This document shows, piece by piece, positions 28,484 through 55,372 of a DNA stretch of 64,000 nucleotides; within the stretch, counting starts at the first letter, position 1; every line of letters begins with the position of its first letter. The DNA lies in NCBI GenBank assembly GCA_017416795.1, contig JAFQBD010000018.1, positions 1-64,000 of the forward strand, written 5' to 3'. The DNA is from Bacillota bacterium (lineage in GTDB: Bacteria > Bacillota > Clostridia > Peptostreptococcales > Anaerovoracaceae). A program made the position numbers and the translations under genes. The notes beneath the pieces are model-generated. The model had not been told where the DNA came from, ran no database searches, and worked only from the letters and a program-made list of their open reading frames with translations.

Positions 28484-29533
28484 ATGATGAATTTTTGCAG
28501 AAAAGCGTTAAAAAAATTAAAGTTATTCGTGTTGTACTGGACAAGGATCGTGTTCGTTAAGAACAACTTCAAGGTTCCATTCTTCACTAAATTGAGAGCC
28601 AACATATTCGGAGGATATCTCGGAGACCAGTACATTCTTTATGATTTCAAACATAATGATAAGAATGAATACCTGTCAGAGTTCGACTGGTATCGTTCAA
28701 GATACATCAATGAACCGTTTGATTTCGCCTTTAATAACAAAGTCGTATGTACTGAAATACTGAAGCATCATATCAGATTTGCCGAAAACTATTTCATAAT
28801 CAACAAAGGCGTTCTTCACGATTTCGAAAACGGTCCTATAGAGTATGAGAGAGTATATGAAAGACTCGTTGAAGAAGGGAACCTCTTTATCAAACCTTTC
28901 GCCATGGGTAAGGGCAACGGAGTGCATAGATTGGCATGTGATAAAGACGGCAAGCTTTACATCGACGAAAAAGAATATACGAAAGATGGACTTATTGAAT
29001 ACCTGAAGAAACTTGATGGATACATCATCTGTGAATGCATGAAGCAGCATTCTTATTCGGACAACATTTATGACAAGACAGTAAATACTATAAGATTCAT
29101 TACGATGAGAGATGTAGAAACTCATCAGATGAAAGTATTCTTCGCAGTACAGAGAATCGGCACGGCCAAGACTATACCTGTAGATAATGGAAGCAAGGGC
29201 GGACTTGTTGCTAAGATCGATCTTGAAACAGGCGTGCTCAGCGAAGCTAGATGCTTACAGGATCTTGGCGTTTTCAAGGTACATCCTGACTCAGGCAATC
29301 CGATCGAAGGTGCACAGATACCGAACTGGACTGCCATCAAAGAGCAGATGCTTGATGTTTGCAAAAAGATCCCTTACATGGACTTTATCGCATGGGATCT
29401 GCTCATTACCGAAGAAGGCGTATGCGTCATAGAAGCCAATACATCCTCAGGAGTCAATATAATCCAGCTTTGGGGAGGTCAGAAACAGGGCGAACTTGGC
29501 GACTTCTTCAGACATTACAATGTGATCAAGTGA
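28484..29533 (+). CDS. sugar-transfer-associated ATP-grasp protein (module 1, first ligase)
   Basis: 349 residues. The ATP-grasp domain spans about 70-340: LFIKPFAMGKGNGVH near 136 with the nucleotide-binding lysine, then YIICECMKQH, VNTIRFITM near 203 and the metal-binding end DLLITEEGVCVIEANTSSG near 305-320. This pattern is that of the ATP-grasp family found in polysaccharide clusters. The enzyme should form an amide or ester through an acyl phosphate; the substrates are unknown. A short basic-hydrophobic N-terminus may touch the membrane. It starts 2 nt after the nucleotidylyltransferase gene, so it belongs to the exporter operon. Confidence 0.8.
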   Translation: MMNFCRKALKKLKLFVLYWTRIVFVKNNFKVPFFTKLRANIFGGYLGDQYILYDFKHNDKNEYLSEFDWYRSRYINEPFDFAFNNKVVCTEILKHHIRFAENYFIINKGVLHDFENGPIEYERVYERLVEEGNLFIKPFAMGKGNGVHRLACDKDGKLYIDEKEYTKDGLIEYLKKLDGYIICECMKQHSYSDNIYDKTVNTIRFITMRDVETHQMKVFFAVQRIGTAKTIPVDNGSKGGLVAKIDLETGVLSEARCLQDLGVFKVHPDSGNPIEGAQIPNWTAIKEQMLDVCKKIPYMDFIAWDLLITEEGVCVIEANTSSGVNIIQLWGGQKQGELGDFFRHYNVIK

Positions 29534-29578
29534 TTTATCAAAAGATAATTATCGAGCAATTAAAACTAAGGTGATGCT

Positions 29579-31564
29579 ATGGATCGATATGGAATTATAA
29601 ATAATGCGGGACAGAGAGAAATCACATTGCAGAAGATATGTGATGTGATAGGGATCCAAGTGCCCGAAAGATTCAATGATGTCAAAGACATCGTCAACAA
29701 TAATGTAGTTACTAAACTTGATCTTGCTACAAAAGGATCATGTCTTTTTCAGATCATCAAAATAAGAAAGAAAAACTTTCCTGATGCAGAGTGGTTTGAA
29801 GAAGCTGAGAAAAAAGGCGTTATCGCGATTTTTGTAGATGAAGAACAGTATTATAGAAATGGCCTTGATAAGACTGACTATCCTATAATTCCTGTGGAGG
29901 ATCTGATAGATAAATGCGGAGCATTTTACTCGTACATCAAGGATCTGAATAATGTGAAGACCCTTGCAGTCACAGGGACTTGCGGCAAAACCACTACTAT
30001 GAAGTTTTTGCAGAGCATCATTCCTAACCATTACAAGACATATAGCAATAAGGGTAATGCCAACTCTTTCTTTACTATAGCTAAACACATCATGCACGAG
30101 CTGACTGATGATAAAGAAATATATCTTCAGGAAGCAGGGGCCAGCGGACCTGATTCTATCAGGAAGTCTGCAGCTATGCTCAAGCCGGATGCATTCATTT
30201 TGCTTAATATATTCCGACATCATCTGAACACATATAAGACACAGGAAAACATCCTTAATGATAAAGCCAGCTTTGACGACTATCTTCAGGAAGGCGGCGT
30301 TGTGATCGCCAATTTTGATGATGAACTGATCAAAAATTATGGATTCAAGCATAAGGTGATTTCTTTCGGTGTTCACACAGAAGACGAGGTGGACTACAAG
30401 GTAGTAAGAGTAGAACAAAAGAGCTCATCCCTTGAAGTTGACATCAAGTATGAAGATAAACTTGTACCTATCAAGGTAGAGATCCTTGGCGTGCAAAACG
30501 CATATAACGTAGCTGCAGCATTTGCTCTTTGCAAATGGCTGGGCCTCAGCGATGAAAAGATCCTCGAAGGCTTCGACACATATGAAAGTGCAGGCTACAG
30601 ACAGAATTTCAGAAATGTTGGCGGACATGACCTGCTGATCGATTGCTATAACGTATGTGAAGATTCAATGAGGGCATCCTTTGAAACTATCAGATTGCTT
30701 CCTTTGGAAGAAGGAAATAAGAAGGTGGCCGTAATTACAGGTGAAAACAAACTGGCAAAGCAGGCGGAAGAGCTTTCATTCAGAATGGGAAGCGAGCTTG
30801 ATCTTAAGGACATCGATCATGTGATCTGTTTCGGAGTTGAGGAAGAAACACAATATAACCTGAACAAGTACTGCCATACAAGAGCTGTATACGAAGGCAT
30901 CAAATCAACAGGATACGAGAATGTTACTTACGTAAATACCCTCGATGATTTGGAAACAGCGATAAGAGATAATGTAGCTGTCGGAGATAAGGTCCTGTTC
31001 AAGGGCATGTACAATATGGATCTGACTACAGTGATAGACAGAGTCTTCGGAACTGCGATCTCGATGAATAATCCTTACTATGTTAAAGATGCAGTGGCAG
31101 TATCCGAGAAGAAATTTGAAGGTAAAAAGATCAAGGCTGTTGAAGGTATAGATCTGATTTCAGTACCTGATAAGAATGCGAAGAATATGATCATTCCCGA
31201 CTATGTAGATGGAAGACCGATCCACAGGATAGCGCCTGATATGTTCAGAGCATGCACTAAGATAAAAAGTGTCGAGCTGGGAAAAACCGTGAAGAATATA
31301 GGTCGAAATGCGTTCGCAGGGTGTGTGGGATTAAAGAAGATAACGATCCCGGGCAATGTTAAAGTCATTGAAAAAGGCGCATTTTTCGGGTGCCTCGGCT
31401 TGAAGGAAGTTGTTATTGAAGAGGGGGTCACTCATATTGACAAGGATGCGTTCAAGAACTGCATCAGGCTTAAATCAGTAAGCGTTCCCGATTCGGTGAA
31501 GTATATCGATGAGTCAGCATTTTCCAACTGTCCGTTTTTGAAAAATAAAGAATTGAAGAAATGA
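29579..31564 (+). CDS. MurF-like ligase fused to BspA-type leucine-rich repeats
   Basis: 661 residues without signal peptide or membrane helix. Residues 10-115 are a MurF-like N-terminal domain. The central Mur-ligase domain has P-loop VTGTCGKTTTMKFL near 131 and YSNKGNANS. A MurF-type C-terminal domain follows, with LLIDCYNVCEDSMRASF near 355. Residues about 537-655 are five LRR_5 repeats (pattern I..AF..C..LK.I.IP..V). Mur ligases join an amino acid or dipeptide to a carboxyl group; MurF adds D-Ala-D-Ala. The fusion of a cytoplasmic ligase to LRR_5, normally a surface repeat, is not one I recognise. It is followed by a tandem ATP-grasp gene overlapping by 4 nt. Confidence 0.8.
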   Translation: MDRYGIINNAGQREITLQKICDVIGIQVPERFNDVKDIVNNNVVTKLDLATKGSCLFQIIKIRKKNFPDAEWFEEAEKKGVIAIFVDEEQYYRNGLDKTDYPIIPVEDLIDKCGAFYSYIKDLNNVKTLAVTGTCGKTTTMKFLQSIIPNHYKTYSNKGNANSFFTIAKHIMHELTDDKEIYLQEAGASGPDSIRKSAAMLKPDAFILLNIFRHHLNTYKTQENILNDKASFDDYLQEGGVVIANFDDELIKNYGFKHKVISFGVHTEDEVDYKVVRVEQKSSSLEVDIKYEDKLVPIKVEILGVQNAYNVAAAFALCKWLGLSDEKILEGFDTYESAGYRQNFRNVGGHDLLIDCYNVCEDSMRASFETIRLLPLEEGNKKVAVITGENKLAKQAEELSFRMGSELDLKDIDHVICFGVEEETQYNLNKYCHTRAVYEGIKSTGYENVTYVNTLDDLETAIRDNVAVGDKVLFKGMYNMDLTTVIDRVFGTAISMNNPYYVKDAVAVSEKKFEGKKIKAVEGIDLISVPDKNAKNMIIPDYVDGRPIHRIAPDMFRACTKIKSVELGKTVKNIGRNAFAGCVGLKKITIPGNVKVIEKGAFFGCLGLKEVVIEEGVTHIDKDAFKNCIRLKSVSVPDSVKYIDESAFSNCPFLKNKELKK

Positions 31565-33885
31565 AAAAAATAAGAGAAATATTCACGTACTTGATGATCT
31601 ACAGATCTGTTTCCAACGGATTCGATGTTTCCGGAGCGAAGCAGTGGCTGGAAAAGATGCTGAGAGTAATGAAAAAAACTAAAAAATATAGTTTGACGCA
31701 GAAGATCAAGGCGTTCAGAAAAGGATATACGCCGCAGCTGGCAGAAAAACTGGAAATCGATCTTAATAGTCAACGTGATATCAGAGAAAACATATCCCTT
31801 AGAGATTATCTGTATCTTCAGCCGCTCAATGGGCTGTACACTAAGTGGATGGATAACAAGGTGATCACCAGAAAGATATGTGCTGATTTTGCTGATGTTT
31901 TTCAGAATGTGTATTACCAGGTAACATCGTCAAAAAATGGCAACAGCATCACTGCCCTTGAAGATTGTCCGTATGAAGGGTATGGAGAAGAAGATGTCAT
32001 CAGACTCATCAGAGATAAGAAAAGAGTTGCGGTCACTGAACCGAGAAGATACAGAAATGTCCTTATAGAGTACATTGACGGCGCATATTACTATGATCAT
32101 CAGCTCATAGATGAAAGTGAGATCATCAGTAAGATCACATCATTCCATAAGAGAGCGATCATAGCCGAATATGCAGTGCCTGCTGATGAGTACAGAAACA
32201 GATATAATGATTTTGGCAATCTCATCACAGCAGTTATAGTAAACAAGACCGGCAATTCACCGGTCATAACAGAGGCATTTGTGAGAGTGGATGATCACTA
32301 CACAGATGAATTGAACAAGAACAGAGAAAGAGAAACTGTTCTTGAGAATAAGATCTACTACAATACAGATACTCTCGATAAAGCAGATAAAGAGAAGCTC
32401 CCTGCGCAGAAGTATTACAGCGGAAGTATAGTTCCGGTAGATCCACAGAATGGCGTATATGATGACGCAGCTTGCAGCGGATCCATCTCAAGCTGGGACG
32501 AAATAAGAGATACAGTTGTGAAGATATGCAGACACGTGCCGCAGCTGGAATTCTTCTCAATGGACATCCTGATCACGGAAGACGGATTCAAGATCATCCC
32601 GTTTATGAATGTGCCTCAGTACTTTGAACATAAGAAATTCTCCGCAGAGACTCTGGATTATCTCCTGGGAAAACTGAAGGAGAAGAAGGAATACTATAGC
32701 GATCCAAAGGTCAAGAAGGCATGGAGCAGAGAAAAAGTCATTACTAAGATAAGAATGATATTCTGCAGGATGTTCTTCCCGAAGGGATTGAAACCTTATT
32801 TAAGTACCAGATGGATATCGGAAGTCAAGGACGATCTTCTGAGAAACAAAGAGACGACTATCAAAGAAAAGATCTGGGCATACAGACACGGTTTTCTTTC
32901 ATACAGACTTAAACAGTACGGTATCACTGATGAGAATTTCTGTGATTATATATCGGATTTTGAGTACAAGTGGCTCAGACATATCAACGGAAGCTACAGA
33001 TCTGTACTTGAAGATAAGATCACAGTCAAATATATAGTGAATAAGTTCAGAGAATGTTTCCCTGATTATTACTATCACATCAAGACTGTCAACAATGTGA
33101 ATGTGATCATTCCTATGATGGACTGCCCTGAAGGATATGGACATGACTTTGAAGATATATTCGCACTAGTAAGAGCAAAGGGCGTTCTGGCTCTTAAGCC
33201 GGATTTTGGCTCTCACGGAGCAGGCTTCTATAAGTTGTCTTATGCAGATGGCGAGTATTACCTGAATTTTGACAGAGTTGAGAAACAGCAGGTAACTGAC
33301 ATCCTCAGTGATCCTGCCAATCAGTACCTTATCACTGAATATATCAACAATCATCCTCAGTTCAAGAGGATATATGACGGCGCTGTTAATACCATTAGAA
33401 TAATCGTATTCAAAAAAGACGGCATTACGCCTGAAATAGGGAATGCATATATGAGATTCGGCTCCAAGAAAACAGGAGCAGTAGACAATATGGGTGCAGG
33501 CGGCATGTTTGTTCAGGTAGATATAGATACCGGTAATTACCATAGCGCTAAGATAATAACAGATAACTCCATCAAGGATTGTCCGAGACATCCTGATACC
33601 GATGTATTGATGGAAGGGACTATACCGCACTGGGACGGTGTGAAAGAAACTGTTCTTAAGGTGGCGGCAAGCATACCTCAGCTTGAATACTTTGGATTTG
33701 ACGTAGCAGTGACTGAAGAGGGCATCAAGTTCCCGGAAATCAACAGATCTCCGGATTATCCTAAGATCGAAAGATTCAGTTATGCTACTAATCAGTACCT
33801 GCTGCAGAAGCTGCAGGAAAAGAAAAAGAAATTTGGCTACGATAAAAAGCCTTGCAGGACATTAATTCACTTGCCAAGACGTTAG
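31561..33885 (+). CDS. tandem ATP-grasp protein, first domain degenerate
   Basis: 774 residues made of two copies of the same unit, each a helical lead-in of about 80 residues plus an ATP-grasp domain. Copy 2 (about 420-760) keeps the active-site pattern: VLALKPDFGSHGAG near 542, VNTIRIIVF near 610, and DVAVTEEGIKFPEINRSP near 715-730. Copy 1 (about 45-400) has VAVTEPRRY where the lysine should be and DGFKIIPFMNVP where the metal-binding glutamate should be, so it probably does not bind ATP normally and may hold a substrate or regulate. ATGA overlap with the MurF-LRR gene shows close coupling. Confidence 0.8.
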   Translation: MKKIREIFTYLMIYRSVSNGFDVSGAKQWLEKMLRVMKKTKKYSLTQKIKAFRKGYTPQLAEKLEIDLNSQRDIRENISLRDYLYLQPLNGLYTKWMDNKVITRKICADFADVFQNVYYQVTSSKNGNSITALEDCPYEGYGEEDVIRLIRDKKRVAVTEPRRYRNVLIEYIDGAYYYDHQLIDESEIISKITSFHKRAIIAEYAVPADEYRNRYNDFGNLITAVIVNKTGNSPVITEAFVRVDDHYTDELNKNRERETVLENKIYYNTDTLDKADKEKLPAQKYYSGSIVPVDPQNGVYDDAACSGSISSWDEIRDTVVKICRHVPQLEFFSMDILITEDGFKIIPFMNVPQYFEHKKFSAETLDYLLGKLKEKKEYYSDPKVKKAWSREKVITKIRMIFCRMFFPKGLKPYLSTRWISEVKDDLLRNKETTIKEKIWAYRHGFLSYRLKQYGITDENFCDYISDFEYKWLRHINGSYRSVLEDKITVKYIVNKFRECFPDYYYHIKTVNNVNVIIPMMDCPEGYGHDFEDIFALVRAKGVLALKPDFGSHGAGFYKLSYADGEYYLNFDRVEKQQVTDILSDPANQYLITEYINNHPQFKRIYDGAVNTIRIIVFKKDGITPEIGNAYMRFGSKKTGAVDNMGAGGMFVQVDIDTGNYHSAKIITDNSIKDCPRHPDTDVLMEGTIPHWDGVKETVLKVAASIPQLEYFGFDVAVTEEGIKFPEINRSPDYPKIERFSYATNQYLLQKLQEKKKKFGYDKKPCRTLIHLPRR

Positions 33886-33973: not shown

Positions 33974-35713
33974 ATGAAAAGGATTATAAGCATCACATTA
34001 GCAGTAATAATGATGGCTACGGTATTCGCAGATATACCGTTACTTAGAGTTTCAGCAGCAGAGACGAACAATGAAACAAATATTGAAACTGATGTGCAGC
34101 AGCTTGAAGGTAATACAGGTGATGAAGTTCAGAAAATCAATATTGCAGATGCTGCAGCAGCTGTTGAAAACAGCAGAGTGCAGTACACAGGAGAGCAGGT
34201 TTATCCTGGCAGTATAACAGTAACTTACGGTGAAACTATATTAACAGAAGGAACTGACTACACTGTAGCTTACAGCAACAATATAGAGCCCGGTTTAGCT
34301 GATGTCATGATTACGGGAACAGGCTTATACGAAGGCACAAAAGTCGTTAAATTCGAGATCTATAAACCGCAGATAAAAGATGCGGAAATCGTTCTGAGTG
34401 CGACAGATCTTTCATATAGCGGCAAAGCAAGAAAACCATATCCGAAATCAGTTACATATCAAGGTGTTGAACTTGTAAAGAATATCGATTACAAGGTAAA
34501 AGGATACAGCAACAACATCTATCCGGGAACGGCTAAAGTTACGATCGAAGGTATCGGTAAGTATGCCGGAACAGTGGACGAGAAGTTCACAATTGCAGCA
34601 ATAAATGATTTCAAAGTTGCTTCACGCACAACAGAAAGTATCAAGCTGAGCTGGAAAAAAGAAAGTAATGTCAAGGGATACAAGGTTTATAAATACAACT
34701 TCTCAACTAAGAAGTGGAAGCTGATAAAAACCATAAAAAGCAATAAAACCACATCATATACAGTTAAAGATCTGGTTCCTGGACGCGGCAATAAATACAG
34801 TGTCAGAACATATGTAGTTAAAGGCAAGACATATTACGGACCTAGGGCTGAAATGGCGGCAGCTACTAAACCGAGCAAGGTAGTGCTCAAGAGCTTCGTT
34901 TCAGGCAGAGAACGTAATGGCAGAGTAACATGGGGCAAGAGAAACAGCACCGGATATCAGGTACAGCTGGCAAGAAACTCCAAGTTCACTAACGCTAAAA
35001 AATATACCGTGAAATCAGACAGCACTGTGAAAATGACATTTGAGAATCTTACGAACGACAAGACTTATTACGTTAGAGTAAGAGCTTACAAGACATATTA
35101 TGGTGTGACTACATACGGAAGCTGGAGTACAAGCAAGAAAACGAAGATCGATGATACCGGCTGGGATACTATAGACGGCAAGAGGTATTATTACAAAGAT
35201 GGTGTTAGACTGAAGGGCGCCCATAAGATCGACGGAAGTAAGTACTACTTCAGTAAGGATAGAGACGGTGAGCTGCTGGGAGCTTCTTATACGATGTATA
35301 AGAAAATCAAGGATAAGAAGAGCGATACTAAATACGCGATCGCCGTATCAAGAGAACTGAATCGTGTATGTGTATACAAGCGTGAAGACGGCAGATGGGT
35401 ACTGAAGAAGTATTGGAAGTGCTCTACAGGTGCTAAGAGCACACCTACACCTAAGGGTTCATTCAAGACTCCTAAGAAAAAGGCTAAGCTGAACTTCTTT
35501 GGTATGACAGAAGATTATACTTGCTGGTATGCTACAAGGATCACCGGCAGAGTATACTTCCACTCAGTACTGTATAACAAGTACAGCAGAACAAGCGTAC
35601 AGGACGGCAGATTAGGCATGAATCTTTCACATGGATGTATCAGAATGGCCTACGATACTGCTAAGTGGATACATACTAATATCAAATCCGGAACTAGAGT
35701 AGTTATTTATTAA
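33974..35713 (+). CDS. secreted L,D-transpeptidase (YkuD) with Ig-like, Fn3 and wall-binding modules
   Basis: 579 residues. A signal peptide is visible (to about 30, ending near VSAAE). Two repeats of about 78 residues sharing GTDYTV/NIDYKV and YSNNI(E/Y)PG (about 60-210) look like bacterial Ig-like modules. Two Fn3-like modules follow (about 212-395), then an aromatic wall-binding repeat with GKRYYYKDG (395-435). The YkuD domain is C-terminal: VYFHSVLY and, 15 residues on, NLSHGCIRM with the catalytic cysteine near 552. Such enzymes make 3-3 cross-links in peptidoglycan or attach proteins to it. It has its own promoter and terminator, so it is separate from the ligase genes around it. Confidence 0.93.
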   Translation: MKRIISITLAVIMMATVFADIPLLRVSAAETNNETNIETDVQQLEGNTGDEVQKINIADAAAAVENSRVQYTGEQVYPGSITVTYGETILTEGTDYTVAYSNNIEPGLADVMITGTGLYEGTKVVKFEIYKPQIKDAEIVLSATDLSYSGKARKPYPKSVTYQGVELVKNIDYKVKGYSNNIYPGTAKVTIEGIGKYAGTVDEKFTIAAINDFKVASRTTESIKLSWKKESNVKGYKVYKYNFSTKKWKLIKTIKSNKTTSYTVKDLVPGRGNKYSVRTYVVKGKTYYGPRAEMAAATKPSKVVLKSFVSGRERNGRVTWGKRNSTGYQVQLARNSKFTNAKKYTVKSDSTVKMTFENLTNDKTYYVRVRAYKTYYGVTTYGSWSTSKKTKIDDTGWDTIDGKRYYYKDGVRLKGAHKIDGSKYYFSKDRDGELLGASYTMYKKIKDKKSDTKYAIAVSRELNRVCVYKREDGRWVLKKYWKCSTGAKSTPTPKGSFKTPKKKAKLNFFGMTEDYTCWYATRITGRVYFHSVLYNKYSRTSVQDGRLGMNLSHGCIRMAYDTAKWIHTNIKSGTRVVIY

Positions 35714-35722: not shown

Positions 35723-35755
35723 AACGAGATGATCATATCGATCATCTCGTTTTTT
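35723..35755 (+). terminator. intrinsic terminator after the L,D-transpeptidase gene
   Basis: AACGAGATGAT (35723-35733) pairs perfectly with ATCATCTCGTT (35741-35751) around a 7-nt loop, and T continues to 35755. Confidence 0.92.
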
Positions 35756-37046: not shown

Positions 37047-38498
37047 ATGAATTATAACGCACCTGAAAAAGGCAGACCATTCGAAGAAATATTAAAAGAA
37101 CTAGACACATTCGGGGTCAACGATCCTGACTATAAAAATGCTAGGACCTGGAGTCTCGTTTACTACCTTAACGAAGAGTATACCAACTTTCTGCAGGATG
37201 CGTACGGCAAGTACTTTTCTGCCAACGGCCTGAATCCTACGGCTTTCAAGAGCCTCAAACGCCTTGAAAAAGAAGTCCTGCGCTTTACAGCAGACTTGTT
37301 CCATGTAGATTACAGTGCGTGCGGTGTGATGACTTCATGCGGCACAGAAAGCTGCATGCTGGCAGTGAAGACTTACAGAGATCATGGCCGCAGCAGAGGT
37401 ATCAAAAAACCCGAGATGATCATCCCTGAAACTGCTCATGTAGCATGGGACAAAGGCGCAGAATACTTCACTGTCAAGGTGCGTCGCGCTCCATTAGCGG
37501 AGGACTGGCGTGTCGACATCAAGGCAGTCGAGAAAATGATAAACAAGAATACCGTGATGATCCTGGGTGCAGCTCCCGAATATCCTCACGGCATAATCGA
37601 TCCTATAGAAGAACTCGGTGAGCTGGCATTGAAACATAAGATCCCTCTTCATGTAGATGCATGTGTAGGAGGCTACATCCTGCCGTTTATAGAAAAGGCA
37701 GGCAAAGAACTTCCACTTTGGGACTTCAGGGTAGAAGGCGTTACATCTATTTCTGCTGATATCCATAAGTACGGATTTGCTGCAAAGGGCGCTTCATGCA
37801 TAATCTATAGGAATGTGGATTATTTCAAGCATCAGGTATTCGTTAATGAAAGCTGGCCGGGTGGAGTATTCGCATCTCCGGCATTTCTCGGCACACGTCC
37901 TGGAGGTGCATATGCAGCTGCGTGGGCCGCAGTACAGGCTAACGGCATCGAAGGTTACACAGCCCTGGCGAAACGGACAATAGAGATAACGGAAGCCCTT
38001 AAAAAAGGAATAACTTCTATCGATGGACTTGAAATAATAGGTGAACCTAAAGCAAGTCTCTTTGCTTACAGATCCACATCGCCTAATATCAATATGTTCT
38101 CGGTAGGAGACTTGATGGAAGCGAAAGGATGGCATATAGACAGATTACAGAAGCCGGATGCTCTTCACGCTATGGTAACGGCACCACATGAAAAAGTAGT
38201 TGAACAGTATATCGCAGACCTGAAAGAATGCGTAGCCTATGCCAAGTCTCATCCTGAACTGGCAGATGAAGGACAGGCAGCTACTTATGGTATGATATCA
38301 CACATACCGCTTCGCGGCATGGTCCGTAAGCAGGTGCTGGATATGTTCGCTGACTCATATAGACTTGATGCCGAAGAACTCGACTTGTCTGACTCAAGCT
38401 CTATGACACCGGGCAGCGGTCAGGAAGGCAAGAAGAGCATCGTAGACAAGGCTATTTCATGGTATGTGAGAAAGAAATCTGCCAAGGCATCTAAATAA
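37047..38498 (+). CDS. sphingosine-1-phosphate-lyase-like PLP-dependent enzyme
   Basis: 483 residues of the group II decarboxylase fold. The sequence follows S1P lyase closely: TSCGTESCMLAVKTYRD near 92, PETAHVAWDKGAEYF near 130, ILGAAPEYPHG near 172, IPLHVDACVGGYILPF near 203, and SADIHKYGFAAKGAS near 236, whose lysine should bind PLP. The eukaryotic enzyme splits sphingoid-base phosphates to phosphoethanolamine and an aldehyde; bacterial relatives may also be amino-acid decarboxylases. No N-terminal membrane anchor, but the C-terminus is basic (WYVRKKSAKASK). AGGAGG precedes the start. Release of phosphoethanolamine for surface decoration is an attractive but unproven role. Confidence 0.8.
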   Translation: MNYNAPEKGRPFEEILKELDTFGVNDPDYKNARTWSLVYYLNEEYTNFLQDAYGKYFSANGLNPTAFKSLKRLEKEVLRFTADLFHVDYSACGVMTSCGTESCMLAVKTYRDHGRSRGIKKPEMIIPETAHVAWDKGAEYFTVKVRRAPLAEDWRVDIKAVEKMINKNTVMILGAAPEYPHGIIDPIEELGELALKHKIPLHVDACVGGYILPFIEKAGKELPLWDFRVEGVTSISADIHKYGFAAKGASCIIYRNVDYFKHQVFVNESWPGGVFASPAFLGTRPGGAYAAAWAAVQANGIEGYTALAKRTIEITEALKKGITSIDGLEIIGEPKASLFAYRSTSPNINMFSVGDLMEAKGWHIDRLQKPDALHAMVTAPHEKVVEQYIADLKECVAYAKSHPELADEGQAATYGMISHIPLRGMVRKQVLDMFADSYRLDAEELDLSDSSSMTPGSGQEGKKSIVDKAISWYVRKKSAKASK

Positions 38499-38611: not shown

Positions 38612-39688
38612 ATGAAAGATATATTAGTTGTATTCGGAAGCATGACACCTGAACATGATTTATCATGTAAATCAGCAGCAACAATTCTCGAAGGGATCGA
38701 CAGAGAAAAATTTAATCCTATCGCTGTAGGTATCACTAAGGAAGGTAAGTGGTTCTATACAGAAGCATCAACTGAAGACATCAAATCAGCAACTGCTTGG
38801 CTTGAATCTCCGACAAATAAGAAGTGTATGCTGGACACTGATTTCGGTTCACACAGACTTATCGTATTCGAAGATGACAACACAGTATCATTCAAGAATG
38901 TTGACTGCGTGTTTGCAAGAATCGCAGGAAATATGGGAGAAGACGGTAAGCTGCAGGGTCTGTTCGAAGTTGCAGGCATACCGTATGTAGGATGCGGCGT
39001 TATGTCATCAGCATGCTCCATGGACAAGGATATATCATATATGTTTGCAGACAGCATTGGCCTCAGAAGACCGCAGACTCAGGTCCTTTGGAAGAAGGAC
39101 TTTGATGAAAAGGGTAAGGGCCTTGTTGAAGACGTCAAGGAAGATCTGGCTGCTAAGGTGGGCTTCCCTATCTTCGTTAAGCCTACATCGACAGGTTCAT
39201 CCGTAGGTATCTCTAAGGCTCACGATGAAGAAGAATTATGGAAAGCTCTCGAAGTTGCTTTTTCATACGGCGATAAAGTCGTTCTTGAAGAAAATATCGT
39301 CGGAACAGAAATCAAGGTCGGCATTTTAGGAAACGACGATCCTAAGATCGGTGCTCTTTGCGAACTGACAGCTAACGGTGACTTCAATGACTTTGACACT
39401 AAATATATTGCGCACAGTTCAACTAAGAAGATTCCTGCTGAGCTGGATCCGGAAACAGAAGCGATGATCAAGGATTACACTATCAAGATCTACAAGGCTC
39501 TCGATTGCAAGGGCTTCTCGAGGATCGACCACTTCCTGACTGAAGACGGACAGCTGGTGTTCAATGAAGTCAACAGCATGCCGGGATTCCAGCCTACAAG
39601 CGTATATCCTGTGCTGTTTGATGCTATCGGTATGTCATATACAGAGCTGATAACAGAACTGCTGGAACTGGCAATGGAGAATAAATAA
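38612..39688 (+). CDS. divergent D-Ala--D-Ala ligase homologue
   Basis: 358 residues, same length and fold as the ddl at 14569, but changed at substrate positions. The N-terminal loop is FGSMTPEHDLS instead of FGGMSSEHEVS. The usual LHG before GEDG is RIAGNMGEDG. The omega loop reads NDFDTKY instead of YDYEAKY, so Phe replaces the tyrosine that helps fix the first D-Ala; a FDFxxKY form is known from VanC-type D-Ala-D-Ser ligases. Kept are PTSTGSSVGISK near 195 and NEVNSMPGF near 322. No VanT, VanX or VanH genes are near. It probably makes a D-amino-acid dipeptide other than D-Ala-D-Ala, possibly for the neighbouring MurF-like fusions. Confidence 0.75.
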   Translation: MKDILVVFGSMTPEHDLSCKSAATILEGIDREKFNPIAVGITKEGKWFYTEASTEDIKSATAWLESPTNKKCMLDTDFGSHRLIVFEDDNTVSFKNVDCVFARIAGNMGEDGKLQGLFEVAGIPYVGCGVMSSACSMDKDISYMFADSIGLRRPQTQVLWKKDFDEKGKGLVEDVKEDLAAKVGFPIFVKPTSTGSSVGISKAHDEEELWKALEVAFSYGDKVVLEENIVGTEIKVGILGNDDPKIGALCELTANGDFNDFDTKYIAHSSTKKIPAELDPETEAMIKDYTIKIYKALDCKGFSRIDHFLTEDGQLVFNEVNSMPGFQPTSVYPVLFDAIGMSYTELITELLELAMENK

Positions 39689-39697: not shown

Positions 39698-39728
39698 ACT
39701 TCCGTGGTGATACCGCGGAAGTATTTTT
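39698..39728 (+). terminator. intrinsic terminator after the divergent ddl
   Basis: ACTTCCGTGG (39698-39707) pairs with CCGCGGAAGT (39713-39722), ten pairs with one G-U, loop TGATA, then ATTTTT. Confidence 0.9.
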
Positions 39729-39857: not shown

Positions 39858-40667
39858 ATGGACAATAGACCTATAGGATTTTTTGATTCGGGAATAGGTG
39901 GCCTGACATGTATCCCAACATTACAAAAAGTATTACCGAATGAGAAGGTAGTTTACTATGGTGATACGGCCAGGACTCCTTACGGATCAAAAGCTATCGA
40001 CACTATACGAAGATTTTCATATCAGATCTCTGACTACCTTGTAAGTCATGACGTTAAGATGATAGTTATCGCATGCAATACTATCAGTGCCACATGTCTT
40101 GATGCATTGAGACGCAGACATCCGCAGATCCCTATCATCGGGGTCATAGAGCCTATCGCCAACCGTATTTCCAGGGAAGAGTCCGGTGGAGTTGAAATCG
40201 GTGTTATAGGCACTAAGGCAACAGTTGCCAGCGGTGTATATGCCAATATAATCACAGGCAGGAACAAAGAGGTCAAGCTTTTTAGCAGAGCATGTCCGGC
40301 TTTCGTTCCTCTTATCGAAGAAGGGATCATAGATAATGAGATCATGGACCTTACGATCAAGTATTATCTGGATGATTTTATCAAAAACAATTCACTTAAG
40401 AAGCTGGTTCTGGGATGTACACACTTCCCGTTCCTGAAGCAGAACATCAACAGACTATATCCTGAACTGGAGCTTCTGAATCCGTCTTCTGAAGTCATAA
40501 ATGAAGTCAAGAGGATACTCGAAGAAAACGATATGCTTGCAGAACCTAGTCATCGTGAACATCTATGTTTTGCCAGCGACCTGTCCGAGAACTTCCAGAC
40601 GATGATAGATAATGTATTTGAAGATAACAGAGAAGTTAAAGTACAGTTCAAGAAGTTCGAAGAATAA
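39858..40667 (+). CDS. murI: glutamate racemase
   Basis: 269 residues, usual size. Motifs: GFFDSGIGGLT at residues 4-14, YYGDTARTPYG near 35, VIACNTISATC near 74 with the first catalytic cysteine, and LVLGCTHFPFL near 185 with the second. It makes D-glutamate for MurD and peptidoglycan. Here it lies between a divergent Ddl and a CapA-MurF-LRR fusion, which raises the chance that part of its D-Glu serves a second polymer. It has its own promoter; the next gene begins 47 nt later and is probably co-transcribed. Confidence 0.95.
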   Translation: MDNRPIGFFDSGIGGLTCIPTLQKVLPNEKVVYYGDTARTPYGSKAIDTIRRFSYQISDYLVSHDVKMIVIACNTISATCLDALRRRHPQIPIIGVIEPIANRISREESGGVEIGVIGTKATVASGVYANIITGRNKEVKLFSRACPAFVPLIEEGIIDNEIMDLTIKYYLDDFIKNNSLKKLVLGCTHFPFLKQNINRLYPELELLNPSSEVINEVKRILEENDMLAEPSHREHLCFASDLSENFQTMIDNVFEDNREVKVQFKKFEE

Positions 40668-40714
40668 ATGAGTTTGAGAATAGTTAATAAGCATAAAGAA
40701 TGGAGTTGTTATAT

Positions 40715-44901: not shown

Positions 44902-46377
44902 ATGAAAGAATATGTAAGATTAGTATCGGAAATAACAGGAAATGATCCTGATAGTACACTGGCCCGAATGAAAATGGTTAAAAAAACATTCGGGATATCA
45001 TATAAAGAGTACTATAATAACGGAATGTACAACATGTCTGAAGGCATGCTGGAAAAAGAGGCTTTGAGGCTTCGTAAGAGAAAAGAGAAGAGACGAGAAG
45101 CTTTTGATGCCATTATAAAAAACAGCAGCATGACAAAGGACAGGATCATCGCTGAAATAAAGCGTATCAATGAGAAAGAAATCAAGCATATAAACGTCCT
45201 GTTCTATGAAAGATTTCAGATGTATTCTATGAGTGAAGAAGAGCTGGAGACGACACTTGAACTTCTGAATAAGAGAGATGAGCTGTGCAAAGAAATCAAA
45301 GATGATTTTAAAAGCATTGATGCAGGGCGAATGACATATTCAGATATCGATCAAAAGATCGCTGAACTGAAGGCCATCATCAAAACCTTAATGAAGCCAG
45401 ATTTTATCGATAAGCTGAGAAATATGTATGCTAAAGGCAGAGACTGTACTAATGACATAGTTCTTGATGATGTATTTGTTGATATGGACGCAACGCGACT
45501 TTTGCTTGAGTTTTCCTTCAAGGAATATCTGGCATTTCACTTCGAAGACAAGACCTTTGAAGAAAAGCGTGAATACATGAACAACAAAGAGAGAATGGAA
45601 GTCTTGAGACAGTATAACGATGAAGCCGGATGTGACATGCTTGATGACAAGGCGAAGTGTTACAAGGTGCTGAAAAAGCAATTCGGCAGAAAGCAAATAT
45701 TGATAAGCAATAAGAACGATGCCTTTCGCTTTAAATGCTTTTGCTTTGGGCGAAAAGCTTTTGTCAAAAAGGCACTGGCCAGATCCATGGGTAAAGGTAT
45801 AGAACTTGTAAACTTGGATGGAAAAACAGATATACGAAAAATAATGATGAGTTTTCTTGATGAATCGGGACCATTCGTAGCAGAGGAACTGATACGTCAG
45901 CACGATACGATGAAGGCATTCAATGAAACTTCTGTTAATACAGTGCGTTTAGAAACATTTTTCGATGGGAAAGAAGTTAGAATCATGGACTCATTCATGA
46001 AAACAGGGCAAAACGGTTCCTTTGTGGATAACGGGGGTGCAGGAGGCATTTTTGCTGCAGTAGATCCTGATTCAGGCATATTGCTCGGTGACGGAATCGA
46101 TGAGTTCGGCAAAATATATATTACACATCCGCAATCAGGCACACGATACAAGGGTCATAAACTTGAAGATTGGGATAAGGCTCTCGCATTAGTCAAGAGT
46201 GTTGGCAGCAAGTTCGCGGGAGTAAGCATCATCGGATGGGATTTAGCCTATACGGATAAGGGGAAATGGATAATCGTAGAAGGGAATGCCAAGCCTCAGA
46301 TAATAGGTAACCAGGCGACGCAGACGAAGGGACTTAAGAAAGAATTCTTAAAAAAAACAAAGTATTCAGAAAAATAA
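44902..46377 (+). CDS. ATP-grasp protein with long helical N-terminus (paralogue of 50658)
   Basis: 491 residues. Residues 1-70 contain the helical module (FGISYKEYYNN), and a second, weaker copy lies near 85-140 (FYERFQMYSMSEEE). A further helical part (165-255) ends in KVLKKQFGRKQ. The ATP-grasp domain (255-485) has FVKKALARSMGKG near 286, VNTVRLETFF near 346, GGAGGIFAAVD and WIIVEGNAKPQIIGNQ near 456-470. The pattern is that of the sugar-associated ATP-grasp group. It begins 17 nt after the preceding ATP-grasp gene with a poor ribosome site, so it is probably coupled to it. The first 69 residues are about 68 percent identical by eye to those of the gene at 50658. Confidence 0.78.
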   Translation: MKEYVRLVSEITGNDPDSTLARMKMVKKTFGISYKEYYNNGMYNMSEGMLEKEALRLRKRKEKRREAFDAIIKNSSMTKDRIIAEIKRINEKEIKHINVLFYERFQMYSMSEEELETTLELLNKRDELCKEIKDDFKSIDAGRMTYSDIDQKIAELKAIIKTLMKPDFIDKLRNMYAKGRDCTNDIVLDDVFVDMDATRLLLEFSFKEYLAFHFEDKTFEEKREYMNNKERMEVLRQYNDEAGCDMLDDKAKCYKVLKKQFGRKQILISNKNDAFRFKCFCFGRKAFVKKALARSMGKGIELVNLDGKTDIRKIMMSFLDESGPFVAEELIRQHDTMKAFNETSVNTVRLETFFDGKEVRIMDSFMKTGQNGSFVDNGGAGGIFAAVDPDSGILLGDGIDEFGKIYITHPQSGTRYKGHKLEDWDKALALVKSVGSKFAGVSIIGWDLAYTDKGKWIIVEGNAKPQIIGNQATQTKGLKKEFLKKTKYSEK

Positions 46378-50514: not shown

Positions 50515-50530
50515 TCCATAAGGCAATATT

Positions 50531-50556
50531 AAAACCATCCCTCGGGATGGTTTTTT
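50531..50556 (+). terminator. intrinsic terminator after the Ig-like protein gene
   Basis: AAAACCATCC (50531-50540) pairs with GGATGGTTTT (50545-50554) with a 4-nt loop CTCG, then T to 50556. Confidence 0.95.
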
Positions 50557-50657: not shown

Positions 50658-52124
50658 ATGAATGAATACGTAAAACTAGTATCGGAAAAAACGGGGGAAA
50701 GCTTCGATAGTACGTTGAGCCGAATGAAAAAAATAAAGAAGTTATTCGGGATCTCATACAAAGAGTACTATAATAACAATCTGTTTGATTTGTCGCAAGG
50801 AATGTTGGAAAAAGAAGCCTTGAGACTCCAAAGGAGAAAAGCGCGCAGAAAAGAGGCATTCGAAAATGCCATAACAAACAGCGGACTTTCAAGAAATGAA
50901 ATACTTGAAGACCTCAGCCGTATCAGCGCTAAAGGAATCATACCGATAAACATCATGCTTTATGATAAATTCCAAATGTATTCTTTGAACGAAGAAAAAT
51001 TGGAAGAAACTTTAAACACTATCAAGTATAGAGATTCCATCTGCAAAGAGCTGAAAAAAGATCTGGAACTTATCGATGAAGGCAAAATGCAGTATGCTGA
51101 TATCGAGCCGAAATTAGAAGAACTGAGAGATATAGTAAGATCATTGATGAACTCTCAATTCTTCGAGAAACTCAAGGCTATGTATATCAGAGGACGAGAA
51201 CATATAGAAGAAGATTCCTTAGAAGAAATATTTGTCGATATGGATATCACCAGAATGCTGCTGGGGTTCACATACAACGAGTATTTATCATTCCATTTTG
51301 AAACAAGGGACCTTCAAGCGCGAAGAACATTCATGACCAATAAAGAAAGAATGATAGCGCTGAGAAAGATAAACGATGATATCAGCTGCAACCTTCTGGA
51401 TGATAAGGCAGAATGCTATAAAATTTTCAAAAAGAAATTTGGCAGAAAACAGATTTTAGTAAAGGAAGAGACAGATTATCGTAAATTCAAGCGTTTCTGT
51501 TTTGGCAAAAAGAGTTTCGTTAAAAAGGAAATCTCTAAATCCATGGGCAAGGGTATAGAACCCGTTTATCTCGATGGTGATGTTGATTTAAAGAAAATCA
51601 TGAAGAGATTCATTGATGAATCCGATGGATTTGTTGCCGAGGAAATGATAAAACAGCACCCTTTTATGGCGTCGTTTAACGGTTCTTCCGTTAACACTGT
51701 CCGTGTGGAAACGTTTTTTGACGGAGAAAATGTGAAAGTCGTAGATTCATTCTTCAGAGTGGGCCAAAACGGAGACTTCGTTGATAATGCAGGCGCAGGC
51801 GGGATCTTTGTAGATGTCGATATAGAGACAGGTAGCTTATGCAGTGACGGTATAGACGAATTTGGCAGAGTTTATGTGACACATCCGCAGTCAGGAAAAC
51901 ATTTTCGCGGAAATGTACTGCAAAAATGGGATAAGGCTTTGAAGCTTGTCAAATATTGCGGAAGCAGAGTTCCGGGAGTCACTTATATAGGATGGGACCT
52001 GGCATACACCAATAGAGGAAAGTGGATAATAGTAGAAGGCAATGCCAAACCGCAGATCATATGTAATCAGGCATCAAAAGGCAGAGGATTAAAATGCGAA
52101 TTCATAGAAAAAGCAAAAATATAA
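50658..52124 (+). CDS. ATP-grasp protein with long helical N-terminus (paralogue of 44902)
   Basis: 488 residues, colinear with the protein at 44902: helical module with FGISYKEYYNN (1-70), a weaker second copy near 85-140 (LYDKFQMYSLNEE), helical linker ending FKKKFGRKQI, and ATP-grasp domain with FVKKEISKSMGKG near 287, VNTVRVETFF near 347, AGAGGIFVDVD and WIIVEGNAKPQIICNQ near 456-470. All catalytic positions look intact. The GGAGG at 50634-50638 is 19 nt from the ATG; an in-frame ATT at 50649 is at a better distance and would add three residues. Overlaps the CapA-MurF gene by 31 nt, so the two proteins are probably made together. Confidence 0.78.
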   Translation: MNEYVKLVSEKTGESFDSTLSRMKKIKKLFGISYKEYYNNNLFDLSQGMLEKEALRLQRRKARRKEAFENAITNSGLSRNEILEDLSRISAKGIIPINIMLYDKFQMYSLNEEKLEETLNTIKYRDSICKELKKDLELIDEGKMQYADIEPKLEELRDIVRSLMNSQFFEKLKAMYIRGREHIEEDSLEEIFVDMDITRMLLGFTYNEYLSFHFETRDLQARRTFMTNKERMIALRKINDDISCNLLDDKAECYKIFKKKFGRKQILVKEETDYRKFKRFCFGKKSFVKKEISKSMGKGIEPVYLDGDVDLKKIMKRFIDESDGFVAEEMIKQHPFMASFNGSSVNTVRVETFFDGENVKVVDSFFRVGQNGDFVDNAGAGGIFVDVDIETGSLCSDGIDEFGRVYVTHPQSGKHFRGNVLQKWDKALKLVKYCGSRVPGVTYIGWDLAYTNRGKWIIVEGNAKPQIICNQASKGRGLKCEFIEKAKI

Positions 52125-55100
52125 ATATATTTGACAAGAAGAGTGTGACTGTAATGATGACCGGCGAACTTGTCGGCTATTCGTTCATGGGAGCTAAAAA
52201 ACTCATACAAGATTCAGACCTGACGGTAGGAGTCATAAAAGACAGGGTCACAGATAAAGATAAGACTTTGAATGCAGCTGAGAAAGCAGGATTCGACTAT
52301 GTGACAGAACCGGAAGAATCGGGAAAAATAAGCTGTATCATCAAAGAGGTAAAAGGCATAAAGATCGGTATCATCAATGTTGATAGGGAACACCTTGAAG
52401 ATGAAGAAACGCTGAAAAATCGCTTTTCAGAAGCGAGAAAAGACGGAGCTGAGTTTCTCTTGGTGTATGCAGGTTTCGGCGCCGAGATCGACGATATGGA
52501 TCTTAAAAAACTGGTTGAAGCAGGGGCAGATTACATCATCGGATACGGCAAGAAGAAGGTTGGCCCGTACAGTGTTTTAATATCCGGCGAAAATAAACAA
52601 GTGCCGATAATCTACAGCAGCGGGACTTTCGGAGGCAGACAAGGCAAGATAATAATTGCAGAGCTTAGATTATCAAGAAATAAGCAAGGCGATGTTGAAC
52701 TGATCAGCGAGGGATATCACCCGTGCCTGGGAACCGGTAAGATCAGACCGATAGATGAAGCGCTTAACGAATACAGCGATAATGAAGAGCGCATAGAACT
52801 TGAAAATGCACTTCTTACGATCAGAACATCGATGGGTATCAACGAAAGGTGCAAGTGCATCATAAGTGCCGATAAGATGCCGGAGAAAATGATGAACGGC
52901 AGCTACAGCCCTTTACAAAAGCAGTACGAAGTGCAGCCGCTGATAACAGCAAGAAGAAAGCAGACTGCCGGTGCTAAGAGGGTAAAGAAAGCTGCAGAAC
53001 GTGAAGCAACGATCATACTTACAGGGAATATAGAGTATGACAGCCGCATCGAAGAAGAAGCCGAGTGTTTCGGACATTACGAATTTCGAAAGAGCTTCAA
53101 GGCAATATCTCGCTGTTTCAAAGATGCAGATTTTGTAATAGGAAGCCTTGATACTATGGCATCCCCTAATTATCCCGGCATCAGTGAAGTTTCAAAAAGA
53201 AGCATAGATTCAGGATATTCCAATTGTCGTATGGAATTCATTGAAGCGTTGGAACAAGCCGGTTTCACGGGTATTGCTGTTTCAAACCCACATAATGCAT
53301 ATCTTGGGATCGAAGGAATTCTTGACACAGAACAAACCATCAAAGATCATAATATGATCCCTTCGGGACTGGGATATGATAAGACGCCGACCGTAGATGT
53401 GAACGATATGAAAGTAGCTTTAGTTTCGGTCACTGTTGGATGTGCTGCGCTTAAAAATCGTTTGACGGAGGAAGCATCTGACAGATTCCTCAATATATTC
53501 GATATGAAAAAGACTAAGGCTGAAATAGATCGTGCGAAAGCTGATGATGCAGATTTTGTTATAGCATATATCAACTGCGGAGCGGACGATGGCGATATGG
53601 ACATTGAAGCTCGCAAGAAGGCAGCGGAATCCGTTGCCGACATGGGTGCGGATTATGTGATCTGCACGGGGAGCAGAGAAGTTTCGGAACATTATCGCTT
53701 TGATACGAAAGATGGCAGAAATGTTCCCATCGCTACATCTCTCGGATGCTTCATCACAGGAAATGAAGATATTCCAAGCCATGACGGCAGCATGATCAAA
53801 CTGAGACTGCTGAGAGACTTTGAAGGGAAGATACACATAAGTGACAGTTTTATTCCGATCAAGATATATCATAAATATGACGGCGTATGTCACAATATCG
53901 TGCCTGATGATGCATATTATAACGATGACTCCGTAGAATACGGCCGCAACTTTACCGTAGCGGAGCTGTATGGATTCCTCGGTAAAACACCTGATGAGAA
54001 AGATCTCGAAAAGCTCGGTGAAAAGTATCATGAGCAGGTGAGCTTCATAACGGCTAAAGAAGAATATATCGAAGAAGGGTGTGCAGCAGTGCTTTTCAAA
54101 TATGCTGATTACGGCAGATTTGAAGAACGTGAGTGGGATATCCGCAAATGTGTAGAAGCAGGAGTGACTCTTGTCATCGATAATGTGCCGCATGATGAAT
54201 TGCCGTGCATCGTAGTTGAAGATGACTTGATGGACGTCTATGGGAAACTTATAAAAGAAGTAATCAAGGGGTATGACCCTATAACCCTTGCGATCACAGG
54301 GACCATGGGAAAGACTACGACTAAAGACATGGCAGTTTCCGTATTCGATAATTACTATAAGACCTTATCAAAAAGAGGCAATGTCAATACTGCTTTCACT
54401 GTCGGTCTGCTGGCACAGAAGCTTAGGGAAGACGATGAAGCATATGTACAGGAAGTCAACGGCGGTACGATAGGTGAAGCCTCTCATATCACCAAGATGA
54501 TAGAACCTGACATCTGCATCTTGACTAATATAGAGAAGAACCACATGAGTCAAGTGGGGACGGTAGAAAATCTTATCAAAGCTAAGATGGGTATCATAGA
54601 CGGACTCAAGCCGGATGGCGTGCTCATAATGTGCAGAGACAATAAGTACCTCCACGATATGGAACCGCCGGTAAAAACTATCTCATACAGCATTTCCGAT
54701 CCGTCGTGTCATTACTATGGCAGAAATATCAGAACTGAAGGTGATGATCTGCTGTTCGACATCGTAGTCAACAGATCCGAGTTCGACGATGCAGGAGTTT
54801 ATCCTGCCAGATTAAATATACGCGGAGAACATAATGTGGGAAATGCTATTGCAGTATTCGCCGCGGCAAGACGAGCAGGAATACCGCCTCATGAGATCAT
54901 CGCAGGCCTTTCAAGATTCAAAACAAGAGGGATCAGGCAGAACATATTTGAGCACGATGGTATTAGGATGATAATGGATACGTACAATTCCAACCCTGTA
55001 GCACTGTATAACATGATCGATGTATTAGATCAGTTCAAGCCGGAGGAAAACGGCAGGAAGATCATTATACTGGGCATGATGGGTGAGCAGGGCGATGATT

Positions 55101-55372
55101 CTCAGCAGGTCCATTATGATGTGGGCAAGACTGTCGGCGGACGTGAATTCGATGTCCTGTTCTGCTTCGGAGAAGATGCTAAATATATGGCTAAAGGTGC
55201 CAGGGACTGCGGTAAAGAAGCCTACTGGTTCGATAATAGAGAGGCTTTCAACAGAAGTCTTGCCAACAGCATAAGACCCGGGGATGTGGTTCTGGTAAAA
55301 GGCAGTCATTCCAATAAGCTGGATACAGCGACAATGGTGCAGATATTCGGTAAGGGTATTCGCAGCCGCTAG
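52094..55372 (+). CDS. double CapA-like / MurF-like ligase fusion
   Basis: 1092 residues, no signal peptide; AGAGGA lies 5 nt before ATG 52094. Residues 15-235 and 300-595 are two CapA-like (PGA_cap) domains. They keep the fold pattern (VMMTGELVGYS and IILTGNIEYDS at the starts, GADYIIGYGKKKV and GADYVICTGSREV near the ends), but the Asp, Glu, Asn and His metal ligands are mostly replaced. Residues 620-1090 are a MurF-like ligase: N-terminal domain with FTVAELYGFLG, P-loop TGTMGKTTTKDM near 735, LSKRGNVNT, IEKNHMSQVG, GEHNVGNAIA and MIMDTYNSNPVAL near 958. No LRRs here. The combination again joins the CapA and Mur-ligase halves known as partners in poly-gamma-glutamate systems. Confidence 0.78.
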   Translation: MRIHRKSKNINIFDKKSVTVMMTGELVGYSFMGAKKLIQDSDLTVGVIKDRVTDKDKTLNAAEKAGFDYVTEPEESGKISCIIKEVKGIKIGIINVDREHLEDEETLKNRFSEARKDGAEFLLVYAGFGAEIDDMDLKKLVEAGADYIIGYGKKKVGPYSVLISGENKQVPIIYSSGTFGGRQGKIIIAELRLSRNKQGDVELISEGYHPCLGTGKIRPIDEALNEYSDNEERIELENALLTIRTSMGINERCKCIISADKMPEKMMNGSYSPLQKQYEVQPLITARRKQTAGAKRVKKAAEREATIILTGNIEYDSRIEEEAECFGHYEFRKSFKAISRCFKDADFVIGSLDTMASPNYPGISEVSKRSIDSGYSNCRMEFIEALEQAGFTGIAVSNPHNAYLGIEGILDTEQTIKDHNMIPSGLGYDKTPTVDVNDMKVALVSVTVGCAALKNRLTEEASDRFLNIFDMKKTKAEIDRAKADDADFVIAYINCGADDGDMDIEARKKAAESVADMGADYVICTGSREVSEHYRFDTKDGRNVPIATSLGCFITGNEDIPSHDGSMIKLRLLRDFEGKIHISDSFIPIKIYHKYDGVCHNIVPDDAYYNDDSVEYGRNFTVAELYGFLGKTPDEKDLEKLGEKYHEQVSFITAKEEYIEEGCAAVLFKYADYGRFEEREWDIRKCVEAGVTLVIDNVPHDELPCIVVEDDLMDVYGKLIKEVIKGYDPITLAITGTMGKTTTKDMAVSVFDNYYKTLSKRGNVNTAFTVGLLAQKLREDDEAYVQEVNGGTIGEASHITKMIEPDICILTNIEKNHMSQVGTVENLIKAKMGIIDGLKPDGVLIMCRDNKYLHDMEPPVKTISYSISDPSCHYYGRNIRTEGDDLLFDIVVNRSEFDDAGVYPARLNIRGEHNVGNAIAVFAAARRAGIPPHEIIAGLSRFKTRGIRQNIFEHDGIRMIMDTYNSNPVALYNMIDVLDQFKPEENGRKIIILGMMGEQGDDSQQVHYDVGKTVGGREFDVLFCFGEDAKYMAKGARDCGKEAYWFDNREAFNRSLANSIRPGDVVLVKGSHSNKLDTATMVQIFGKGIRSR

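Follow-up and report, generated by a model that had tools for sequence, protein, structure and literature searches.

MurF-like fusion proteins and PF14397 ATP-grasp ligases clustered with teichoic-acid-like genes in a Bacillota bacterium

Analysis of a 64,000 nucleotide stretch of the genome of a Bacillota bacterium of the family Anaerovoracaceae (assembly GCA_017416795.1, contig JAFQBD010000018.1, positions 1 to 64,000; referred to here as the window) reveals a locus in which three proteins with a MurF-like ligase fused to additional domains are encoded together with five ATP-grasp genes, among genes typical of teichoic acid synthesis and export. Of the explanations considered, we favor, with moderate confidence, a cytoplasmic pathway that links amino acids or short D-amino-acid peptides through amide bonds to an exported teichoic-acid-like polymer. 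The ATP-grasp genes and their Tag-type neighbors form a core that is conserved in several related genera, and the Mur fusions are physically linked to this core in a subset of them.

The three Mur fusions, here designated a (29579–31564), b (40700–43672) and c (52094–55372), match the Pfam Mur_ligase_M domain with E-values of 1.8e-29, 8.7e-34 and 2.4e-31, respectively. The ATP-grasp genes, numbered 1 (28484–29533), 2 (31561–33885), 3 (43700–44884), 4 (44902–46377) and 5 (50658–52124), match ATPgrasp_ST (PF14397) with E-values from 8e-39 (ATP-grasp 1) to 1.1e-45 (ATP-grasp 5), with 2.2e-43 and 2e-42 for ATP-grasps 3 and 4; these are the only PF14397 genes of the whole genome, and every one lies inside the locus. 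All of the genes listed here are open reading frames (ORFs) on the + strand. An earlier inspection of the window that used its letters and translated ORFs (the original prediction) had counted three MurF-like fusions and five ATP-grasp genes, and both the ORFs and the Pfam matches confirm these numbers; position 40715, given there for fusion b, is an internal methionine of an ORF that starts at 40700.

The NCBIfam model that best matches each of the fusions is murF, with scores of 176, 240 and 255 bits for a, b and c, all below the murF cut-off of 288.6; the true MurF of this genome is encoded on another contig (C49) and scores 372 bits. The AlphaFold model of fusion b (predicted local distance difference test [pLDDT] score 82.8) has MurF structures as its best structural matches. 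When aligned with ten true MurFs, all three window fusions retain the GxxGKT P-loop as well as the Glu, His and Lys that are catalytic in the Mur central domain; one relative, a 733-residue fusion in genome G199, is without the Lys. The DSR...DGH signature of the N-domain, present in most of the ten true MurFs compared, is absent from the fusions. The N-domain of MurF is the part that binds UDP-N-acetylmuramic acid (UDP-MurNAc), and with its signature lost the acceptor of the fusions is probably other than that of MurF.

The relationships among the fusions do not fit a simple repetition of one module. Pairwise identity among a, b and c is only 26–27%, and in a tree they fall into three clades shared with other genomes – FUSa (100/100), FUSb (100/99) and FUSc (100/99), the last containing fusion c with sequences from G332 and G199 – that are apart from the true MurFs. 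(The tree includes a mis-extracted MurF row from G044 with a long branch, which was dropped from the motif alignment.) Because of this low identity and the separate, supported clades, the three are old paralogues gathered in one locus, and a recent duplication of three Mur modules is ruled out by the tree. ATP-grasps 4 and 5, which are 57% identical, look like a recent duplicate pair, the only such pair among the ligases of the locus. The three repeated modules originally described are thus only partly borne out; each fusion does occupy its own predicted transcription unit together with one or two ATP-grasp genes.

The architecture of the fusions is more elaborate than originally described, with the MurF-like ligase standing as predicted and degenerate PGA_cap (CapA-like) domains having been overlooked. 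Fusion a consists of the ligase and a BspA-type leucine-rich repeat (LRR) region and has no PGA_cap domain. In fusion b, the N-terminal ~340 residues correspond to one PGA_cap/CapA relative, followed by the ligase and an LRR region, and the N-terminal part of fusion c corresponds to two. Profile comparison assigns these parts to PGA_cap with probabilities of 92–99.8%, versus 0.2–0.3% for unrelated controls. Their catalytic motifs are lost but are kept in stand-alone PGA_cap proteins of related loci, which are present in intact form in four genomes of genus g42. There is no predicted transmembrane (TM) segment in any complete Mur fusion, and signal segments are likewise lacking, so that the CapA-like parts would be active on the cytoplasmic side; a membrane-spanning CapA was considered and rejected for want of a TM segment.

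Two unusual fusions outside the window may also be described here. In G036, a single protein (L027:6093–9359, −) combines Mur, LRR, an intact-motif PGA_cap and a VanY-type domain, and adjoins an LCP (LytR-CpsA-Psr) gene; the catalytic Glu of the VanY-type domain appears, from reading the sequence, to be Asn. In G821, which belongs to a different family of the phylum, a MurF-like ligase is fused to an S11 D,D-carboxypeptidase-type domain (L083:1288–3507, +) whose SxxK motif likewise appears to be lost. These fusions hint that D-amino-acid peptides may be ligands.

All five ATP-grasp genes score 134–156 bits against a Pfam gathering score of 31.4 for PF14397. As originally predicted, there are six ATP-grasp domains, but one of them, the N-terminal half of ATP-grasp 2, is a relative without catalytic motifs and is dead by this measure, while the C-terminal half is intact; the same is seen in all five genomes aligned (the window's own and four relatives). 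The motifs of ATP-grasp 3 are intact. The model of ATP-grasp 5 (pLDDT 83.1) matches, with moderate TM-scores, a Streptomyces ATP-grasp peptide ligase (8ynd), RimK, LysX, tubulin tyrosine ligase (TTL) and Ddl, and its fold thus resembles the carboxylate-amine ligase type, making it a putative amide ligase. ATP-grasps 4 and 5 have N-terminal helical repeats, and a motif G(I/V)(S/T)(Y/F)xEY recurs in the N-terminal helical repeats of ATP-grasps 3–5 (window 44902–46377 and 50658–52124; L021 and L041), being essentially limited to ATP-grasp proteins in the loci fetched. At locus L021 of G048, large proteins of 1153 and 825 residues (1–3459 and 5025–7502, both −) with ATP-grasp domains of other families lie on either side of a PF14397 gene.

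Three strong, terminator-like hairpins (35723–35751, 39698–39722 and 50531–50554, all +) split the region into units, which are predictions, as the hairpins are consensus matches and not mapped transcripts. Divided in this way, each Mur fusion lies in a separate predicted unit. Unit 1, which ends at the first hairpin, contains a TagG-like ABC-2 exporter permease (25204–26010; PF01061) that lies beside ATP-grasp 1 in most relatives, a TagH-like exporter ATPase (26022–26747; PF00005) whose orthologues are 55–72% identical in the loci of most relatives and ~40% in three g42 genomes, a TagB/TarB-like glycerophosphotransferase (26744–27883; PF04464, with matches to TarL, TarB and TarF models that are all below cut-off), a MobA/IspD-type nucleotidyltransferase (27894–28481; weak matches to PF12804 and PF01128) kept next to ATP-grasp 1 in nearly all relatives, ATP-grasp 1, Mur fusion a, ATP-grasp 2, and a secreted L,D-transpeptidase (YkuD; 33974–35713) that also carries fn3 and choline-binding-type repeats. 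The second predicted unit has the D-Ala-D-X ligase gene Ddl_B (38612–39688) as its last gene. Unit b, which ends at the third hairpin, contains a MurI glutamate racemase (39858–40667), Mur fusion b and ATP-grasps 3 and 4, followed by a GltS-type transporter gene (at 46449) and an amidohydrolase gene. Unit c contains ATP-grasp 5, Mur fusion c, a membrane-anchored transglutaminase-like protein (55387–57183; PF01841, one predicted TM segment), a LicD-family phosphotransferase (57186–58808; PF04991) whose orthologues lie next to Mur fusion a in G008, G014 and G047, and further genes.

The linkage of these genes is conserved. ATP-grasp 1, which serves as the marker of the conserved core and has orthologues 50–79% identical, has 20 matches in 394 genomes of the order, all within one family, and a family-wide search found it in 29 of 350 genomes and 9 of 92 genera. 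Mur fusions are present in 22 of the 350 family genomes, 18 of which also have ATP-grasp 1 (hypergeometric P 3.6e-19 at the genome level, ignoring shared ancestry). Counted by genus, the fusions occur in 6 of 92 and both occur together in 5 (P 1.5e-5, again ignoring shared ancestry). In nearly all of the loci fetched, ATP-grasp 1 is accompanied by TagB, the nucleotidyltransferase, TagG and TagH, often by the double ATP-grasp 2, and by an LCP gene adjoining a 581-residue protein that is most likely threonyl-tRNA synthetase, because that of the window also has 581 residues.

Several relatives bring the Mur fusions directly into this arrangement. In G100 there is a run of MurI, CapA-Mur-LRR, Ddl_B, TagG, TagH, TagB, ATP-grasp 1, nucleotidyltransferase and an intact PGA_cap, with gaps of −44 to +34 nt; G162 shares this order, as does G397, where it is split into two halves on two contigs. 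Fusion b orthologues are at 58–60% in these three genomes. In G199, of a genus other than that of G100, TagB, nucleotidyltransferase, ATP-grasp 1, two ATP-grasp-3-like genes, Mur-LRR, CapA-Mur-LRR and an ATP-grasp-4-like gene are separated by −14 to +10 nt, with a third Mur fusion and two YkuD genes upstream of the run. In G008, G014 and G047, which belong to the window's genus, a Mur-LRR gene lies inside a cluster of TagGH, nucleotidyltransferase, ATP-grasp, LicD, YkuD and TagD genes. A contig scan with ATP-grasp 1 returned three gut or rumen metagenome-assembled genome loci, labeled 'Clostridiales' or 'Bacillota' and one of them from goat jejunum, which correspond to G014, G047 and G008; the full-length CapA-CapA-Mur protein, used in a scan of this kind, gave no match. 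The original prediction had named its own test beforehand, namely that the pairing be conserved next to TagGH or LicD, and such pairing was found across several genera.

Some observations weigh against our interpretation. The ATP-grasp/Tag core occurs without a Mur fusion in several genomes (e.g. G303, G238 and G177), fusion and ATP-grasp 1 are on different contigs in G219, G278, G325, G332 and G347, fusions are present without ATP-grasp 1 in G048, G310, G365 and G513, and a fusion-related protein is encoded in G036, a genome without any PF14397 gene. (Genes in the relatives were called by a simple longest-ORF scheme, and contig breaks can hide linkage.) Because some genomes carry the core alone, the Mur fusions are best regarded as accessory to it. 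A comparable match was present in only 2 of 299 genomes of a phylum-wide sample, one of them the window's own. In addition, no characterised PF14397 member was found in the literature searched, and the profiles of two PF14397 subfamilies match no solved structure by sequence.

Ddl_B is a member of the Ddl family (PF07478/PF01820; 348.7 bits to NF002528, cut-off 262) and represents a divergent subfamily; it is 39% to Ddl_A, a second, canonical Ddl encoded at 14569 in the window. In place of the canonical substrate-binding motif HGxxGEDG, of which Ddl_A keeps the HG, Ddl_B has AGNMGEDG, and its three linked orthologues have AGNTGEDG; similarly, the REIEVAVLGN of canonical Ddl_A becomes S/TEIKVxxLGN in the Ddl_B group. 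These shared, lineage-specific changes would fit an altered substrate. MurI (TIGR00067, 207 bits) is the sole glutamate racemase above cut-off in the genome and must therefore also feed peptidoglycan, and the idea that it is dedicated to a polymer pathway was rejected for this reason. The TagGH, TagB, divergent Ddl, MurI and LicD genes originally predicted to surround the ligases are thus all present, with MurI doubling as the housekeeping racemase. A gene of the YkuD type is found close to Mur fusion a in G008, G014, G047 and G048, as well as within the G199 cluster, and the recurrence of an L,D-transpeptidase near Mur-LRR fusions (window 33974–35713; L017–L020 and L066) suggests a role in cross-linking.

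The remaining genes of the region include two LCP-family glycopolymer transferases (21927–23438 and 23448–25106; Pfam LytR_cpsA_psr) whose orthologues occupy the corresponding position in G008, G014 and G047. A tRNA-Arg gene (23439–23514, −) overlaps the start of the second LCP ORF, the true start of which is thus probably further downstream. At the other end are a TagD-like cytidylyltransferase fused to a GFO/IDH-type oxidoreductase domain (59510–60853), whose G303 orthologue is 89% identical over the TagD part, and a second LicD-family phosphotransferase (60861–62483; PF04991). A pyridoxal phosphate (PLP) decarboxylase of the tyrosine/glutamate type (37047–38498; scores below cut-offs) is a possible source of the amine for an amidation; no such gene was seen in the loci of the relatives.

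We propose that the TagB and LicD transferases and the TagD-like cytidylyltransferase would make a teichoic-acid-like glycopolymer that is exported by TagGH and attached to the wall by LCP proteins. The parts expected for wall teichoic acid are present (TagGH exporter, TagB/TarB/TarF-type transferase and LCP ligase), and there is no PF03808 match in the genome for a TagA/TarA (WecG-type) linkage-unit glycosyltransferase; without TagA, the polymer is not expected to be a canonical wall teichoic acid. In the cytoplasm, amino acids or short peptides would be joined by amide bonds to the polymer or its precursor, with ATP-grasps 1 and 2 as the core enzymes acting on the polymer or on its primer. 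The fusions may attach further residues via acyl-phosphate chemistry, using an acceptor other than UDP-MurNAc-tripeptide; the degenerate CapA/PGA_cap and LRR parts of these proteins could be binding or docking modules, and a specialised Ddl_B probably provides unit b with its donor, a D-amino-acid dipeptide. We infer the amide product on the polymer, the residues used and the order of the steps. The substituents of this kind envisaged in the original prediction fit the families, folds and precedents (PMC11800379, PMC8153356), although they stay inferential and the fusions have only an accessory part. A more ambitious version, which we think quite unlikely, is a second, peptidoglycan-independent stem-peptide pathway in which the specialised Ddl provides a D-amino-acid dipeptide, CapA-MurF-LRR and PF14397 proteins build a short peptide on the teichoic-acid-like polymer; this peptide would then be cross-linked to peptidoglycan or to neighboring chains by the L,D-transpeptidase and transglutaminase of the cluster.

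Some of these features could reflect the making of a variant peptidoglycan precursor, with MurI, Ddl_B and fusion b generating a variant stem peptide as in van operons, and the Tag neighborhood being merely a shared region of wall genes. Ddl_B is closest to Ddl/VanG-type ligases, the only racemase above cut-off is that of unit b, the Mur part of fusion b is 74% conserved across genera, and the VanY-type and S11-type domains of the G036 and G821 fusions point in the same direction. We nonetheless consider this unlikely, since the genome has a normal MurF and the window a canonical Ddl (14569), the DSR/DGH signature is missing from every fusion, the unit continues directly into TagG-TagH-TagB in G100, G162 and G397, and in G199 fusions a and b overlap or abut ATP-grasps and TagB. 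It is very unlikely that the ATP-grasp and Mur-like proteins act instead on small molecules or proteins – in making a secreted non-ribosomal peptide or in protein tagging – and are linked to the Tag genes by a common surface function. The nearest folds to ATP-grasp 5 (8ynd, RimK, LysX and TTL), the LRR domains, which suggest protein contacts, and the amino-acid-metabolism genes of the region (PLP decarboxylase and amidohydrolase) would all be accommodated, but what is constant across genera is the position of ATP-grasp 1 within the TagB/TagGH run, little beyond this being conserved, and neither a carrier protein nor any peptide exporter apart from TagGH is conserved in the loci.

The combination of PGA_cap, Mur-type ligase and glutamate racemase also brings to mind the poly-gamma-glutamate capsule synthetases CapBCA/PgsBCA, which would have the locus polymerise D-glutamate. 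This would explain the fusion of PGA_cap domains to Mur ligases, the intact stand-alone PGA_cap in g42 clusters, the position of MurI adjoining fusion b, and the GltS-type transporter gene at 46449. CapC (PF14102) was not found in the genome, however, although the control matched in Bacillus subtilis; the Mur parts resemble MurF, the 24–25 NCBIfam families listed for them include no CapB/PgsB model, and CapB is placed near FPGS (folylpolyglutamate synthetase), not MurF (PMC11915815). The fused PGA_cap domains are moreover degenerate and missing from fusions a, and Ddl_B would have no role. With CapC missing from the genome and no CapB-type ligase among the families listed, this idea was rejected as highly improbable.

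Our favored pathway, amide-linked decoration of an exported polymer, has partial counterparts in known systems. The C-terminal domain of Campylobacter Cj1438, a TupA-like ATP-grasp, makes amides on the glucuronate of growing capsular polysaccharide (PMC11800379), and TupA is tied to teichuronopeptide (PMC8153356). Like Cj1438 and the TupA of Bacillus halodurans, the window ATP-grasps are enzymes encoded inside a surface-glycopolymer gene cluster, but they belong to PF14397 rather than the TupA family, MurF-like fusions and a Ddl are added, and the window shows no obvious uronate enzyme. With MurF and Ddl of peptidoglycan synthesis the locus shares the MurF fold and catalytic core and, in genus g42 loci, an adjacent D-Ala-D-X ligase gene; it differs in the lost acceptor-domain signature, the PGA_cap and LRR additions, the separate clades and the linkage to teichoic-acid-like genes. 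CapBCA/PgsBCA likewise pair a Mur-type ligase with a PGA_cap protein, whereas this locus has no CapC, a ligase that is MurF-like and not CapB-like, and fused PGA_cap domains that are degenerate and cytoplasmic. In cyanophycin synthetase (CphA), ATP-grasp and Mur-type ligase work jointly, the Mur part being placed near MurE/MurF (PMC11915815), but CphA is a fused protein that makes a free Asp-Arg polymer, whereas in the window the two are encoded separately, within a glycopolymer locus. Archaeal pseudomurein clusters also bring Mur ligases, an ATP-grasp protein and a MobA-like nucleoside triphosphate transferase into one wall-polymer gene set (PMC11915815); there the Mur classes are different, Tag/LicD genes are not reported, and the hosts are Archaea.

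The literature searched contains no description of PF14397, of PGA_cap with Mur or of LRR with Mur, a 2009 amidoligase survey (doi 10.1039/b917682a) being outside its coverage; within it, there is no account of MurF relatives that carry CapA-like and LRR domains and are tied to TagGH loci. Knowledge of amide-linked wall-polymer decorations is sparse outside model bacteria. If the proposed pathway is correct, gut and rumen bacteria would have reused the MurF/Ddl chemistry of peptidoglycan on a different wall polymer, and the whole PF14397 ligase family would gain a testable function. It would also bear on surface charge, cross-linking and sensitivity to wall-active drugs in these gut and rumen bacteria.

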